A stretch of DNA of 64,000 nucleotides, from assembly GCA_017395045.1 (NCBI GenBank), contig JAFPWG010000002.1, positions 1 through 64,000 on the forward strand, in the 5' to 3' direction. Positions 13,708 to 41,665 of this stretch are shown here, piece by piece (positions within the stretch are counted from its first letter, which is position 1; each line of letters starts with the position of its first letter). The translations under genes were made by a program, and so were the position numbers. This DNA is from Bacteroidales bacterium (GTDB taxonomy: Bacteria > Bacteroidota > Bacteroidia > Bacteroidales > UBA932). Below the pieces are notes generated by a model. The model saw only the letters and a program-made list of their open reading frames with translations, made no database searches and was not told the origin of the DNA.

Positions 13708-14268
13708 ATGAGGACCGTTCATCTGGAAAAGGCAAAGCCTGAAGAGTTAGACGCCGTCATCCGCTTTTACGATGATGTCATCGATAACACTCCGGGGATA
13801 GAGGATACCGCCCGGTGGCGGAAGGGTGCGCATCCTACTGCAGAAGGTCTTAAAACCTCCATAGAACGGGGGAATCTATACCTGTGCAAAGAAAACGGGG
13901 AGATTGTCGGCGCTTTGGATTATCCAATGTGTCAAGGTGATGATTATCACACCATTAACTGGAAGGAGAAGCTTCCGGACGAGCAGGTTGCGACGGTCCA
14001 TATCCTGGGCGTCAAGCCAGGCTTGCAGGGAACCGGAATCGCTTCCGCCATCATTAGGGATGCCATCGCCCTGGCTCGGGCGAACGGGATGAAGGCCGTC
14101 CGGCTGGACACGTTGGCATCCAACATTCCGGCGCAGCACCTGTATGAGTCATTGGGCTTCGAATTCAGGGGGAAACAGCACCAGTATGCGGAAAATACGG
14201 GCTGGCTGGATTTCTTCTTCTATGAATTCACGGCTATGGATGGATGGCAGCCGGACAGGGGATGCTGA
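13708..14268 (+). CDS. GNAT family N-acetyltransferase
   Basis: A 186-residue protein with the GNAT acetyl-CoA motif: VHILGVKPGLQGTGIAS (about residues 92-108) matches beta-4/alpha-3 with Q-x-x-G-x-G, and LYESLGFEFRGK is motif B. The upstream beta strand NGEIVGALDY is typical. It starts 18 nt after the transporter stop and may be cotranscribed. Substrate unknown. Confidence 0.88.
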   Translation: MRTVHLEKAKPEELDAVIRFYDDVIDNTPGIEDTARWRKGAHPTAEGLKTSIERGNLYLCKENGEIVGALDYPMCQGDDYHTINWKEKLPDEQVATVHILGVKPGLQGTGIASAIIRDAIALARANGMKAVRLDTLASNIPAQHLYESLGFEFRGKQHQYAENTGWLDFFFYEFTAMDGWQPDRGC

Positions 14269-14281
14269 AGATTTGCCGGTA

Positions 14282-14312
14282 TTGGATATTTAAATTTTTT
14301 AATTTAAATTTG
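14282..14312 (+). promoter_or_regulatory. Promoter of the cysteine leader and cysK-cysE
   Basis: A -33 type TTG at 14282-14284 and the -7 box TAAATTTG at 14305-14312 are 20 nt apart. The spacer contains a perfect inverted repeat ATTTAAATT-TTTT-AATTTAAAT (14288-14309), which could be an operator or just AT-rich DNA. Confidence 0.7.
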
Positions 14313-14318
14313 CACCAG

Positions 14319-14393
14319 ATGATGACGATAAAGACCAATACGTGTTGCTGCTGTTCCAATCTTCCGGATTGGTACGGTCCTGCGCGTATCTGA
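14319..14393 (+). CDS. Polycysteine leader peptide upstream of cysK
   Basis: A 24-codon frame starting MMTIKTNTCCCC, with four consecutive Cys codons (TGT TGC TGC TGT at residues 9-12), ending in TGA at 14391. The first ATG is 6 nt after the -7 box, so the message is probably leaderless. A six-bp hairpin CCAATC/GATTGG follows the Cys codons directly, and an intrinsic terminator stands before cysK. The layout is that of a ribosome-mediated attenuator sensing Cys-tRNA. Polycysteine upstream ORFs with this job are known in mycobacteria; I know of no described case in Bacteroidota. Confidence 0.75.
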   Translation: MMTIKTNTCCCCSNLPDWYGPARI

Positions 14394-14430
14394 GAGTCAT
14401 CTCGGTTTCTCCTGAATCAACAAGAATGCG

Positions 14431-14465
14431 CCTCCTGCCGGTCCCGAATCGAGCAGGGGTTTTTA
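14431..14465 (+). terminator. Intrinsic terminator (attenuator) before cysK
   Basis: Stem CTCCTGC (14432-14438) with GCAGGGG (14453-14459), then six T. It lies between the leader peptide and the cysK ATG at 14488. The segment CCTGC inside the leader (about 14379-14383) could pair with the 3' arm instead, giving an antiterminator. Confidence 0.75.
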
Positions 14466-14487
14466 TTATGCTTAAATACAATTAGTT

Positions 14488-15423
14488 ATGGTGTACAATT
14501 CTCTTACGGAAATGATTGGGAACACGCCGCTTCTGAGGGTCAAGGCATTTCCCGGCCAGAAGGCCGACATCCTCGTCAAACTGGAGTACTTCAATCCGGG
14601 CGGAAGCGTCAAGGACCGCATCGCCCTGGAAATGATCGAAGATGCCGAACGCCGCGGCATCCTGGCCCCGGGCGCGACCATCATCGAGCCCACCAGCGGC
14701 AACACCGGCGTGGGACTGGCCTGGGTCGGGCGCGCCAAGGGCTATACGGTAATCCTGACGATGCCCGAGACGATGAGCCAGGAGCGCCGCAGCCTCCTCA
14801 AGGCGCTGGGAGCCAGGCTGGAGCTGACCCCCGGCGGCGCCGGCATGAAGGGAGCCATCGCCAAGGCGGAAGAACTCCGCGACGGAATACCTGGAGCCGT
14901 CATCCTCGGCCAGTTCACGAACCCCGCCAATCCGGCCGTGCACGAGCGGACCACCGGCGAGGAAATCTGGCGTGATACCGAAGGGAAGGTCGATATCTTC
15001 GTGGCGGGCGTCGGCACCGGAGGGACCCTGAGCGGCACCGGGAAGGCCCTGAAGAAGCACAATCCGGCCGTGAAGGTGGTTGCCGTCGAACCCGCATCCT
15101 CCCCCGTCCTGTCCACCGGTGTCGCCGGCAAGCACAAGATCCAGGGCATCGGCGCCGGTTTCGAGCCCGACACCTTCCGCCGCGACGTCGTGGATGAAAT
15201 CCTTACCGTCGCCGACGACGACGCCATCCGCTCGTCCCGCCGGCTTTCGGCCCGGGAAGGCCTTCTCGTGGGCATTTCCTCCGGCGCCGCTTTCAGCGCC
15301 GCCCTCTCCCTGGCTTCCCGGGAAGAGAATGCCGGAAAGACCATCGTCGCCCTGCTTCCCGACACCGGAGAACGATACCTCTCCACCGTATTGTACGCTT
15401 TTGACGATTACCCTCTCGAATAA
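14488..15423 (+). CDS. cysK: Cysteine synthase A (O-acetylserine sulfhydrylase)
   Basis: A 311-residue PLP enzyme making cysteine from O-acetylserine and sulfide. It shows the PLP lysine in NPGGSVKDR (about residue 45), the substrate loop TSGNTGVGL, the phosphate cup [10 protein letters not shown] (about residues 174-183) and the C-terminal SSGAAFSAA. The length is normal. Its stop overlaps the cysE start (TAATG), so the two are coupled. The upstream polycysteine leader and terminator suggest control by cysteine supply. Confidence 0.96.
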
Positions 15424-16157
15424 TGAACTCCCTGAAAACCACTGCGAAAGCCCTCGCGGAGATGATGGATGCGGTATTTGACACCGTCTTTCCGGATTAT
15501 GCCGCTCCCTCCCCCGCCGCTCCCTCCGAACGGATCGTCCGCGCACTTTCCCCCCTCGCCGGCGAGGAAGTCGCGCAGGCATTCGTCCGTTCCCTCCCCG
15601 AAATCAAGAGACTGCTGGAGACGGATGTCAAAGCCATCGAGGCCAATGACCCGGCTGCGACCGGAGCACGCGAGATCATCTTCTGCTATCCGGCCGTCAA
15701 GGCCATCCTGTACTACCGATCCGCCCACCGTCTCTGGGAGATGCACGTGCCCATCCTCCCGCGCATGCTTACCGAATATGCCCATTCCGTCACTGGCATA
15801 GACATCCATCCCGGGGCTGCCATCGGCGAATACTTCGCCATCGACCACGGAACGGGAACGGTGATTGGCGAGACCTCCGTCATCGGAAACCATGTCACGC
15901 TTTATCAGGGCGTTACGCTGGGCGCACGCAATTTCGTCTATGACGAGACCGGACGGCCGCGGAACGTGCCCCGCCACCCGGTCCTGGAGGACGACGTGAC
16001 CGTCTATTCCAACGCCTCCCTGCTCGGACGGATCACCGTCGGGGCCGGCTCCATCATCGGAGGCAACGTCTGGCTCACGCATTCCGTTCCGCCCCATTCC
16101 CGCATCGTCCAGAGTCCATCCCGGGAGTCTTTCTTCCGGGATGGCGACGGAATCTAG
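15423..16157 (+). CDS. cysE: Serine O-acetyltransferase
   Basis: A 244-residue enzyme supplying O-acetylserine to CysK. The C-terminal half is a left-handed beta-helix with hexapeptide repeats (IDIHPGAAIGEYFAIDHGTG, TVIGETSVIGNHVTLYQGVT), holding the catalytic His of the IDHGTG segment. The N-terminal helical domain is of the EpsC/short type found in Bacteroidota. ATG overlaps the cysK stop by one base. Confidence 0.94.
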   Translation: MNSLKTTAKALAEMMDAVFDTVFPDYAAPSPAAPSERIVRALSPLAGEEVAQAFVRSLPEIKRLLETDVKAIEANDPAATGAREIIFCYPAVKAILYYRSAHRLWEMHVPILPRMLTEYAHSVTGIDIHPGAAIGEYFAIDHGTGTVIGETSVIGNHVTLYQGVTLGARNFVYDETGRPRNVPRHPVLEDDVTVYSNASLLGRITVGAGSIIGGNVWLTHSVPPHSRIVQSPSRESFFRDGDGI

Positions 16158-38902: not shown

Positions 38903-41665
38903 ATGAAACGACTTAATTCGCGAATCACACTCGCTCTCCCGGCTATCCTCATGGCCTTCCTGTTCCTGGGGAATACGGCCCGCGCCCAAAACCGGACGAA
39001 GTCCCTGACCCTGCATCTGACAGTCGTCTCCGACACGGACAAACAGCCCGTCGCAGGCGCAGCCTGCCTTCTGACCGACTATGGCATCTTCGCCATCACG
39101 GATGCGGACGGCCGGGCACGGCTGGAGAAAGTACCTTCTGGAGACGCGACGCTTTCCATCCAGATGCTCGGTTTCGAGGATTTCACGCAGATGATGAGCT
39201 TCCGCAGCGATTCCACGTTCACCGTCGCCATCCTGGAATCCACCCTCGCCCTGGAAGAGGTCGTGGTGACGGCCAAGTCCAGCGCCGCAGGATCCTCCAC
39301 CAGCTCGAACATCGGCCGGATGGCCATCGACCACCTTCAGGCCACGAACCTCAAGGACATCATGCAGCTCCTCCCGGGCCAGCTGATGTCGTCCTCCGAC
39401 ATGACCTCCGAGGAAAAACTGACCATCCGCACCCTGAGCAACGCCACGGCCAACAATGCCTTCGGCACCTCCATCATGATGGACGGCGTACCGGTGTCCG
39501 ACAACACCTCCATCGGCGACAAGGTGAGCGGCTCCTCCGGCGGTGCGGGCGTGGACCTGCGCCAGATCAGCGCCGACAACATCGAATCCGTCGAAGTGAT
39601 CCGGGGTATCCCGTCCGCCGAATACGGCGACCTCACTTCCGGGGCCGTCGTCGTGAACACCAAGGCCGGCTACACTCCCTACGAAATCCGTACGAAGGTC
39701 AACCCGACCACGTTCAACACCTCTTTCGGCAAGGGCTGGAAATTCAGCAAGAAGGCGGGAAGCCTGAATGTCAATGCCGACTACGCCCGGGCATCGGGCG
39801 ACCCGCGCGTGAAAAACCGCTCCTTCGACCGAATCAGCGGCGGAATCACCTACAGCAACACCATCAATAACATCTGGTCCACGACCACGAAGCTCAACGT
39901 CAACAGCATCGTGGACCTCCGGACCTCAGACCCGGACCTTCTCATCGAAGGAACGGAAACCAGCCAGGAACAGTATACTGTCCGCCTGACGCACAACGGA
40001 CGGCTTTCCCTGAACAAGAAACTGTCCCGGTCGCTTACCTACGCCCTGGGTTTTACCCTCACGAATTCCGAGACCCGTACTTCCAGCATCGTTTCCGCCG
40101 GCGGAGGACTGCCCGTCATCTCCTCTCTCTCAGACGGTTATTACCGGGTTCCTTACCTGACCGACTCCTACCGGGCCGGCGGCGGGACCTCCTCCCGCCC
40201 CCGGAACTTTTATGCCAAGGTGGGCAATGTGTTCACCGCCAATACAGAGACCCTGAAGCAGCGCTTCAACATGGGCGCGGAATACAGATGGGAGTCCAAC
40301 AAGGCGAGGGGCTTCTACAACGATTCCGACTTTCAGCCGCTCCGTCCTACCAGCAACGGACGGCCCCGGCCGTATTTCGACATCCCGTCCCTCAACCAGG
40401 CATCGGCCTACCTGGAAGACAACCTCACCTGGGACATCACCAAGACCATCGAGTTCAAGCTCCAGGGCGGCGTCCGTTTCGACATGCTGCAGCCGGGTCT
40501 CCCGGAGCAGGTCCAGTCCATTTCCCCGCGTTTCAACGGATCGCTCCGGCTGACCGACTGGCTGACGTTCCGCGGCGGATGGGGCCAGAGCAACAAGACC
40601 CCGGGACTCGCGCACCTGTATCCGGAGCCCAAGTACTCCGACCGTGAATCCGCCATCTACCTGCCCGCGGACATCGGCCGGCAGATGGTCGTGTACAACA
40701 CCCACATCACCGAGGTGGAACGGAACAACACCCTCCGGAACGCCACCAACAGCAAGACGGAGGTCGGCGTGGACATGAACTTCAAGAACGGGATGTCCGT
40801 CTCCATCGTCGCCTACAGGGACTTCATGAAGAACGGATTCGGCAACCTGACCGAATACAGCATCTACTATTCGAACTACTACACCGCCCAGCAGGGAATC
40901 CTCCTGGACCGGGACAACCAGCCCTACATCGACTGGAAGCACCCTGCCCGCGTGGACACCGTCTTTACCACCAGCGGACGAATCGGCAACACCCAGGCCA
41001 GCCTGGACCGGGGCATCGAATTCGACATCAACTTCGGACAGATCAAGCCCATCCGCACCAGCGTCCTGCTGAGCGGCGCCTGGATGGAGACGCAGACCTG
41101 GAGCACCGGGCGCAACTTCTCCAGTCCGACCGGCATCCCCGCCAGCTCCGTCTATGCCCAGGGCGGTTCCAACACGCCTCCCTTCAAACTGGAGTACCCG
41201 TCCGGCCTGCAGCGGAGCATCGACCGCCGGTTCAGCGCGAACCTGCGCCTGGTATGCAACATCCCCCGCATGAAGATGGTCATTTCGGCCTCCAACCAGG
41301 TCATTTTCTACACCTACAGGCACACGACGAACCAGCAAAGCGACCCCTTCGGATGGATTGACACCGACCTCTCCTACCACGACATCACCCAGGCCATGCT
41401 GGCGGACCCGGACACCCGGATCAAGGGCGTCCTCCTGTCGGCCCAGAGGAAGAACCCCGCCGACAGCCAACCGGTTACGCAGCCTCCCATCTGGCTGATG
41501 AACATGCGCCTGACGAAGGACGTTTCCAAGAGCTTCGGCTTCTCCTTCTTCGTGAACAACGCCTTCTTCTACATGCCGTACCAGGCAAGCTCTTACTCCG
41601 GTACCCTGACCGAAAGGAATACCGGTACCTTCTCCTTCGGCGTGGAAATGTACGTAAAGATCTAG
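38903..41665 (+). CDS. TonB-dependent outer-membrane receptor
   Basis: A 920-residue receptor: signal peptide (LALPAILMAFLFLGNTARAQ), carboxypeptidase-regulatory-like domain (~35-115, VVSDTDKQPVAGAACLLTDY), plug (~125-240, SNIGRMAIDHLQATNLKDIM and ESVEVIRGIPSAEYGDLTSG), then the 22-strand barrel ending in Ile (GVEMYVKI). No SusD partner follows. With the DUF4876, DUF6850 and metalloprotease genes it forms a conserved Bacteroidota set; the cargo may be a metal chelate or peptide (inference). Confidence 0.93.
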   Translation: MKRLNSRITLALPAILMAFLFLGNTARAQNRTKSLTLHLTVVSDTDKQPVAGAACLLTDYGIFAITDADGRARLEKVPSGDATLSIQMLGFEDFTQMMSFRSDSTFTVAILESTLALEEVVVTAKSSAAGSSTSSNIGRMAIDHLQATNLKDIMQLLPGQLMSSSDMTSEEKLTIRTLSNATANNAFGTSIMMDGVPVSDNTSIGDKVSGSSGGAGVDLRQISADNIESVEVIRGIPSAEYGDLTSGAVVVNTKAGYTPYEIRTKVNPTTFNTSFGKGWKFSKKAGSLNVNADYARASGDPRVKNRSFDRISGGITYSNTINNIWSTTTKLNVNSIVDLRTSDPDLLIEGTETSQEQYTVRLTHNGRLSLNKKLSRSLTYALGFTLTNSETRTSSIVSAGGGLPVISSLSDGYYRVPYLTDSYRAGGGTSSRPRNFYAKVGNVFTANTETLKQRFNMGAEYRWESNKARGFYNDSDFQPLRPTSNGRPRPYFDIPSLNQASAYLEDNLTWDITKTIEFKLQGGVRFDMLQPGLPEQVQSISPRFNGSLRLTDWLTFRGGWGQSNKTPGLAHLYPEPKYSDRESAIYLPADIGRQMVVYNTHITEVERNNTLRNATNSKTEVGVDMNFKNGMSVSIVAYRDFMKNGFGNLTEYSIYYSNYYTAQQGILLDRDNQPYIDWKHPARVDTVFTTSGRIGNTQASLDRGIEFDINFGQIKPIRTSVLLSGAWMETQTWSTGRNFSSPTGIPASSVYAQGGSNTPPFKLEYPSGLQRSIDRRFSANLRLVCNIPRMKMVISASNQVIFYTYRHTTNQQSDPFGWIDTDLSYHDITQAMLADPDTRIKGVLLSAQRKNPADSQPVTQPPIWLMNMRLTKDVSKSFGFSFFVNNAFFYMPYQASSYSGTLTERNTGTFSFGVEMYVKI

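Follow-up and report, generated by a model that had tools for sequence, protein, structure and literature searches.

In the 64,000-nucleotide stretch of Bacteroidales DNA analysed here, referred to throughout as the window, cysK and an adjoining cysE-like gene are preceded by a short open reading frame with a run of cysteine codons, a hairpin and an intrinsic terminator (Table 1), an arrangement which, with a probability of roughly 0.86, represents a ribosome-mediated (leader-peptide) transcription attenuator through which cysK-cysE respond to the level of charged tRNA-Cys. The window belongs probably to the genus Cryptobacteroides.

According to the proposed mechanism, a ribosome would initiate almost at the 5′ end of the transcript and translate the leader. 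With ample Cys-tRNA the ribosome would pass the cysteine codons, reach the stop codon and mask region 2, upon which the terminator would form and transcription would end before cysK. With scarce Cys-tRNA it would stall on the cysteine codons and mask region 1 only, so that region 2 (GATTGGTA) could pair with the emerging region 3, which lies in the terminator 5′ arm and loop; through this 2:3 pairing the terminator would come too late and cysK-cysE would be transcribed. Without translation, hairpin 1 would sequester region 2 and termination would be favoured.

Table 1. Features of the putative cysteine attenuator and of the genes behind it in the window.
Feature	Position	Strand	Remarks
−7-like box TAAATTTG	14305..14312	+	fits Bacteroides consensus TAnnTTTG; 6 nt 5′ of leader ATG
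Leader ORF MMTIKTNTCCCCSNLPDWYGPARI	14319..14393	+	24 codons; ATG at 14319, TGA stop at 14391-14393
Sensor codons TGT TGC TGC TGT (4 × Cys)	14343..14354	+	read from sequence
Hairpin 1 (regions 1:2), CCAATCT/GGATTGG	14356..14372	+	14356-14362 pairs with 14366-14372; directly 3′ of Cys codons
Region 2 CCGGATTGGTA, antiterminator 5′ strand	14364..14374	+	complementary to region 3 at 10 of 11 positions
Intrinsic terminator (regions 3:4), CTCCTGC/GCAGGGG + TTTTT	14432..14464	+	7-pair stem, 14432-14438 with 14453-14459; loop 14; TTTTT 14460-14464
Region 3 TGCCGGTCCCG, antiterminator 3′ strand	14436..14446	+	overlaps terminator 5′ arm and loop
cysK, cysteine synthase A	14488..15423	+	TIGR01139, 431.3 bits, cut-off 350.95
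cysE-like serine O-acetyltransferase	15423..16157	+	1-base overlap with cysK stop; NF041874 (EpsC-type), 156.2 bits, cut-off 150

The initial annotation had described a promoter element about 6 nt before a 24-codon reading frame with four consecutive cysteine codons, a hairpin just behind these codons, a rho-independent terminator before cysK, and cysK-cysE downstream; all of these are present at the locus, with the qualification that the product of the second gene passes the EpsC-type cut-off, not that of the TIGR01172 cysE model (160 bits, cut-off 210.65; NCBIfam). The consensus which the promoter-like box fits is the −7 consensus of Bacteroides, the box being centred near −7 in the accessible text of the corresponding study (PMC7366714). 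A promoter scan found no sigma-70 promoter near the window leader, and a −33 element is not obvious there by eye. Genome-wide, the 12-mer TGY ×4 occurs in 8 copies in 2.67 Mb, compared with 28 for the reversed control pattern; one of the eight is the window leader and the others fall within long reading frames or on their opposite strand. Another frame of the same genome, which with its CCCC..PDW resembles a sister leader (L057), was rejected as it is antisense to a SusC-like gene (named by eye). Rfam covariance models, T-box and riboswitches included, have no match at gathering score in the window, nor in L001, L003, L004, L009 and L011, nor in nine loci that carry a leader for His, Trp or Cys. 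The free leader RNA of the window is predicted to fold more stably than its shuffled versions (z −2.36; 4 of 200 shuffles as good), with the stem of hairpin 1 reaching over the cysteine codons. The terminator ends 23 nt 5′ of the cysK ATG; a generic terminator scan misses its stem because the loop limit of the scan is 8, and reports another short stem at 14390-14405, of which 0.7 are expected in shuffles.

A comparison of the sequence upstream of cysK in relatives, as had been proposed along with the initial annotation, shows that leader and terminator recur in 38 of 119 oriented upstream regions of the genus, a sample that does not hold every genome, sometimes holds two copies per genome and stems mostly from the better cysK matches, with matches of about 40% identity and several of 64-69% left out and L215 and L219 unusable. 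A loose Cys-rich upstream open reading frame (uORF) is found in 43 of these regions, five of which (L002, L015, L158, L165, L180) were dropped. By a strict test, which requires a Cys run in a uORF that starts with ATG, 31 of the 119 regions are positive, compared with a mean of 0.35 and a maximum of 2 in block-shuffled copies. The terminator score is passed by 39 of the 43 regions with a loose Cys uORF (L002 spuriously) versus 4 of the 76 without, an association the p-value of which is not taken at face value because the regions are related; the terminator is, moreover, a selection criterion for the 38 kept leaders.

The spacing within the leaders is similarly recurrent. In 28 of 38 the Cys run is preceded, at a distance of exactly 8 codons, by a start codon, the residues in between being unconserved by eye. 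A loose T...TTTG box is located 6-9 nt 5′ of the leader start in 15 of the 38 and 15-22 nt in 13, and was not found in the other 10, one of which is cut by the contig end. From the centring of the box at −7 and the spacing of 6-9 nt we infer 5′ untranslated regions (UTRs) of only a few bases in the first group. As far as the accessible text of PMC7366714 goes, 5′ UTRs shorter than 10 nt amount to only about 3.7% in Bacteroides thetaiotaomicron, and Bacteroidota are without classical Shine-Dalgarno sequences.

In 61 of the 81 genus regions that were not retained, a frame of 100 codons or more runs in the direction of cysK and stops at most 150 nt upstream, as would fit a cysK within another operon; several of these frames appear sulfhydrylase-like by eye. 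A Cys-run uORF farther upstream was found in none of 12 leaderless genus loci within the 1,285-1,500 nt available. The loss of the Cys run with the rest of the leader region kept had been named in advance as speaking against attenuation; such a case is seen once, in the close relative L002 (G017:C93; CysK 89% identical), where the −7-like box and a CCTGCC..GCAGG terminator are kept and the Cys leader between them is absent. In L015 the Cys run is present and a terminator was not found.

The genomic setting of the leaders varies. In L044 (G191:C7, 2605-2682) the ATG of the Cys leader lies one base 3′ of the end of a tRNA-His gene, and tRNA processing might create the 5′ end of the leader. In L012, L182 and L183 a frame of the same direction ends only a few bases 5′ of the Cys leader and a −7-like box was not found; at these loci the leader may function within an operon. 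Two genomes carry two convergent cysK copies each (G121:C4:139331-143600 and G174:C80:1-4200), of which one has a Cys leader (L183, L182) and the other is leaderless, close behind another open frame (L194, L200).

A search of the leader for alternative structures, likewise proposed beforehand, yields an antiterminator which competes with both hairpins and which the initial annotation had not named; it is supported over the set, not clearly by the window alone. Region 2 has two alternative partners, CCAATC before it, in hairpin 1, or region 3 downstream. The evidence comes from alignment A2, which was made by MAFFT with pairing ignored and holds 23 of the 38 leaders, the 15 left out including odd ones and those of the L011 class described below. 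The antiterminator is paired in 89.4% of the cells of A2, and 24 cells have changed on both sides, compared with 9.3 in shuffles. Its covariation score is 0.263 versus 0.164 shuffled, a value as high being reached by 0 of 500 shuffles and slid versions staying at or below 0.085, whereby the cells do not represent independent events and the slid controls flatter structures that were drawn from the same leaders. The count of further pair types is unexceptional, being reached by 61 of 500 shuffles. Hairpin 1 (P1 helix, 23 leaders) is paired in 81.5% of cells, with a covariation (0.246 versus 0.212 shuffled, 15 of 500) weaker than that of the antiterminator; one row shows clear compensation (GTATCGG with CCGATAC). 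The terminator core CCTGCC/GGCAGG hardly varies, with 94.2% of cells paired in the 23 leaders and no covariation signal.

Blocks chosen by motif also support this pairing. The blocks of regions 2 and 3 were picked by motif rules, a choice of region 2 by its match to region 3 being circular; 12 of the 38 leaders, without TGCC or GGY, were dropped, and 22 distinct leaders were used. None of 100,000 re-pairings was as good as the own partners (4 of 100,000 with an earlier motif rule and 21 distinct leaders), and the pair covariation count was 0.371 versus 0.232 shuffled (0 of 500). In duplex energy, own partners reach −17.8 compared with −13.7 for swapped ones (0 of 20,000 permutations). Taken singly, 28 of 38 leaders have a duplex that no more than 10 of 200 shuffles match, those of L020 and L142 are no better than shuffles, and the duplex of the window itself is equalled by 21 of 200. 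The GG of region 2 lies 16 nt 3′ of the Cys run in 12 of the 22 distinct leaders. A second leader class (L011, L176, L193, L197, L203, L205) uses another sequence, GGATGGTGCA with TGCATCATCC, at comparable positions and with the same logic.

The effect of the ribosome was computed for the 38 leaders by folding with the footprint removed and with partial transcripts that end before the 3′ arm of the terminator. Predicted antiterminator occupancy averages 0.84 for a ribosome stalled on the cysteine codons and 0.28 for one at the stop codon, compared with 0.46 for free RNA and 0.50 for stalled shuffles; it exceeds 0.5 in 38 of 38 stalled leaders and in 4 of 38 with the ribosome at the stop, and the stalled value is matched by at most 5 of 100 shuffles in 21 of 38 leaders. 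For the window the corresponding occupancies are 0.71 stalled, 0.12 at the stop, 0.30 free and 0.46 shuffled, with 18 of 100 shuffles as high as the stalled value. At full-length equilibrium, a shift in the predicted direction exceeds 0.1 in 25 of the 38 leaders, 0.5 is crossed that way in 15, and none reverse. The window does not switch, its computed terminator probability being 0.93 for a ribosome on the first Cys codon, 0.92 on the second and 0.98 on the last versus 0.94 at the stop. As its terminator thus wins at equilibrium at every ribosome position, the switch in the window, if working, would be kinetic. By these calculations the copy of the window is among the weaker switches of the set, and the folding evidence for the window alone is weak.

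Could the terminator simply belong to the gene upstream, with the Cys frame arising by chance and the cysK promoter located further down? A GNAT-like acetyltransferase gene (13708-14268) runs in the same direction and stops 50 nt 5′ of the leader ATG, and terminator-like hairpins occur also in four genus regions without a Cys uORF. We nevertheless judge this explanation very unlikely, as leader and terminator recur before cysK behind other neighbours such as the tRNA-His gene of L044, the Cys runs are far above the shuffled expectation (31 of 119 versus 0.35) and the terminator covaries with region 2 of the leader. Stalling on the cysteine codons might, on the other hand, act at the level of translation or via Rho, as proposed for Actinobacteria, the Cys leaders of which are described in the available part of PMC1262725 as without conserved terminators, with Rho suggested, and the mycobacterial case of which is termed translation attenuation in that of PMC13236596. 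Against this route, which we regard as highly improbable for the genus, stand the overlap of the antiterminator with the 5′ arm of the terminator and the U-tailed hairpin, which is found in 38 of 43 regions with a loose Cys uORF, where it served as selection criterion for the 38, and is rare without a Cys uORF (4 of 76).

Very improbable, too, appears an action of the Cys-rich peptide itself, as small protein, metal binder or arrest peptide, with RNA pairing being secondary. In many leaders the Cys run is followed by a WYG-like tail, and 16 of the 22 distinct leaders have region 2 in one and the same frame, which leaves some room for peptide conservation. However, L161, L168 and L183 translate the nucleotides of region 2 in a different frame and L153 has them 3′ of its stop codon (in L020 and L036 they are out of frame too, the assignment of region 2 being doubtful there), the residues before the Cys run show no conservation by eye, and conservation tracks base pairing. 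The reading favoured here, that stalling at the cysteine codons prevents the terminator, had already been put forward in the initial annotation and gains support from recurrence, spacing, the covarying antiterminator and set-wide folding; it presumes that the leader is translated, that transcription terminates at the hairpin and that cysteine is the signal.

Leaders for other amino acids share features with the cysteine leader. Covariance model R1 was built from the window leader and 22 others, so that its match in the window (14319-14465, 92.7 bits) arises by construction. Its weak matches in 400 genus genomes include MNRFNNNMHHHHHISQG before a hisG-like and MIYSNSYWWWRFYNFNKS before a trpB-like gene (gene names by eye). 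A His-run uORF precedes hisG at 26 of 31 loci (genus, 16 of 19; other families of the order, 10 of 12), with hairpins visible by eye behind many of them. The distance from start to His run is 8 codons in 9 of the 16 genus leaders; for 10 others it is 5-9 codons. In the genome of the window itself, hisG is preceded by the His leader MNLRINNKHHHHLVFTR and a U-tailed hairpin (L273, G000:C31, hisG 39700-40548, minus strand); trpB has no match in this genome. Trp-run leader peptides with hairpins, such as MNAYWWWRPLQLRQS and MNLTSVNKFWWWHLQLQQS, precede trpB at 8 of 17 loci in all, 6 of 7 in the genus (L316, L317, L318, L319, L322, L329) and 2 of 10 in other families (L320, L321).

In 295 genomes of the order, R1 matched 14 at E 0.001 or better, strongly only that of the window, with a full-length match in G515 and matches to the 3′ part only in the rest. 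The G515 match is a Trp leader of another family (L304, G515:C130:6582-6705, minus strand), MQNIVLNNWWWSFFTR, which starts 8 codons before the Trp run, carries a CCTGCC..GGCAGG hairpin with a U tail and stands in front of a trpE-like gene. The present type of Cys leader was not seen outside the genus among these 295 genomes in a search mode that loses weak matches. As the weak full-length matches of R1 include His and Trp leaders of the genus as well as this Trp leader of another family, we tentatively entertain, at somewhat less than even odds, a layout shared among Bacteroidales, consisting of a nearly leaderless ORF, sensor codons at about codon 9 and pairings that compete with a terminator, in which only the codon run is swapped (Cys for cysK-cysE, His for hisG, Trp for trpB/trpE), the Cys version being a Cryptobacteroides innovation and the polycysteine-cysK leaders of Clostridia having arisen separately.

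The latter were encountered in loci L082-L140, mostly named Clostridia, where a strict Cys-run uORF precedes cysK at 10 of 59 loci (L084, L091, L092, L094, L098, L102, L108, L123, L124, L130) compared with 0.07 in shuffles; in 25 loci of other records, nearly all named Bacteroidota, the same test found none. Nine of the ten (L092 excepted) showed no riboswitch or T-box at Rfam gathering scores, and these leaders look like an independent Cys attenuator. By eye, several of the ten have AGGAGG-like sites and U-tailed hairpins.

If the attenuator works as proposed, the charging of tRNA would report the cysteine supply to gut bacteria without an intermediate, and a regulatory role would fall to leader ORFs whose 5′ UTRs are very short. 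With the His and Trp leaders added, three amino acids at least seem to be subject to ribosome-gated attenuation in Bacteroidota. Cysteine sensing in Bacteroidota is little described in the literature searched, and no description of a Cys attenuator in this phylum was recognised among the open-access papers searched. The accessible parts of PMC4833913 and PMC2965389 name no Cys attenuator, the latter stating in 2010 that no leader-peptide system was known beyond Proteobacteria and Actinobacteria before its Firmicutes one.

Related systems have been described elsewhere. In Rhodobacterales, uORFC-8-2 (PMC8632094, as far as accessible) is a predicted Cys attenuator before cysS. Like the window leader, it combines a uORF that holds tandem Cys codons with a U-tailed terminator, and ribosome-mediated attenuation is predicted for both, yet its two Cys codons are usually codons 14 and 15, inside the first stem. 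The window leader differs also in its downstream gene, cysK and not cysS, and in being from Bacteroidota. In Actinobacteria, short ORFs with a Cys run before cysteine genes are similar to the window ORF; they precede cys operons with no conserved terminator hairpins in the mycobacterial regions according to the accessible text of PMC1262725, and are assigned to translation attenuation in that of PMC13236596. Within Bacteroidota, the available portions of two studies report clues that amino acid operons of Flavobacterium psychrophilum are subject to leader-peptide attenuation (PMC9723704) and 5′ UTR small ORFs reminiscent of leader peptides in Bacteroides thetaiotaomicron (PMC7366714), whereas neither cysteine genes nor an antiterminator are named there. 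With Cys attenuators already proposed in Rhodobacterales and Actinobacteria, what would be new here is cysteine sensing before cysK-cysE in Bacteroidota, probably from a near-leaderless start.

A mycobacterial polycysteine leader is reportedly called leaderless and cysteine-responsive in the title of a 2020 work by Canestrari. Set against such a mycobacterial-type leaderless start, the box lies 6-9 nt from the start in 15 of the 38 leaders, 15-22 nt in 13, and was found in none of the remaining 10. The classical his and trp attenuators of Proteobacteria operate by competing 1:2, 2:3 and 3:4 pairings gated by the ribosome on the sensor codons. The window leader is predicted to have the same competing pairings, with cysteine as the putative sensed amino acid and an ORF that starts only a few nucleotides from the predicted 5′ end.
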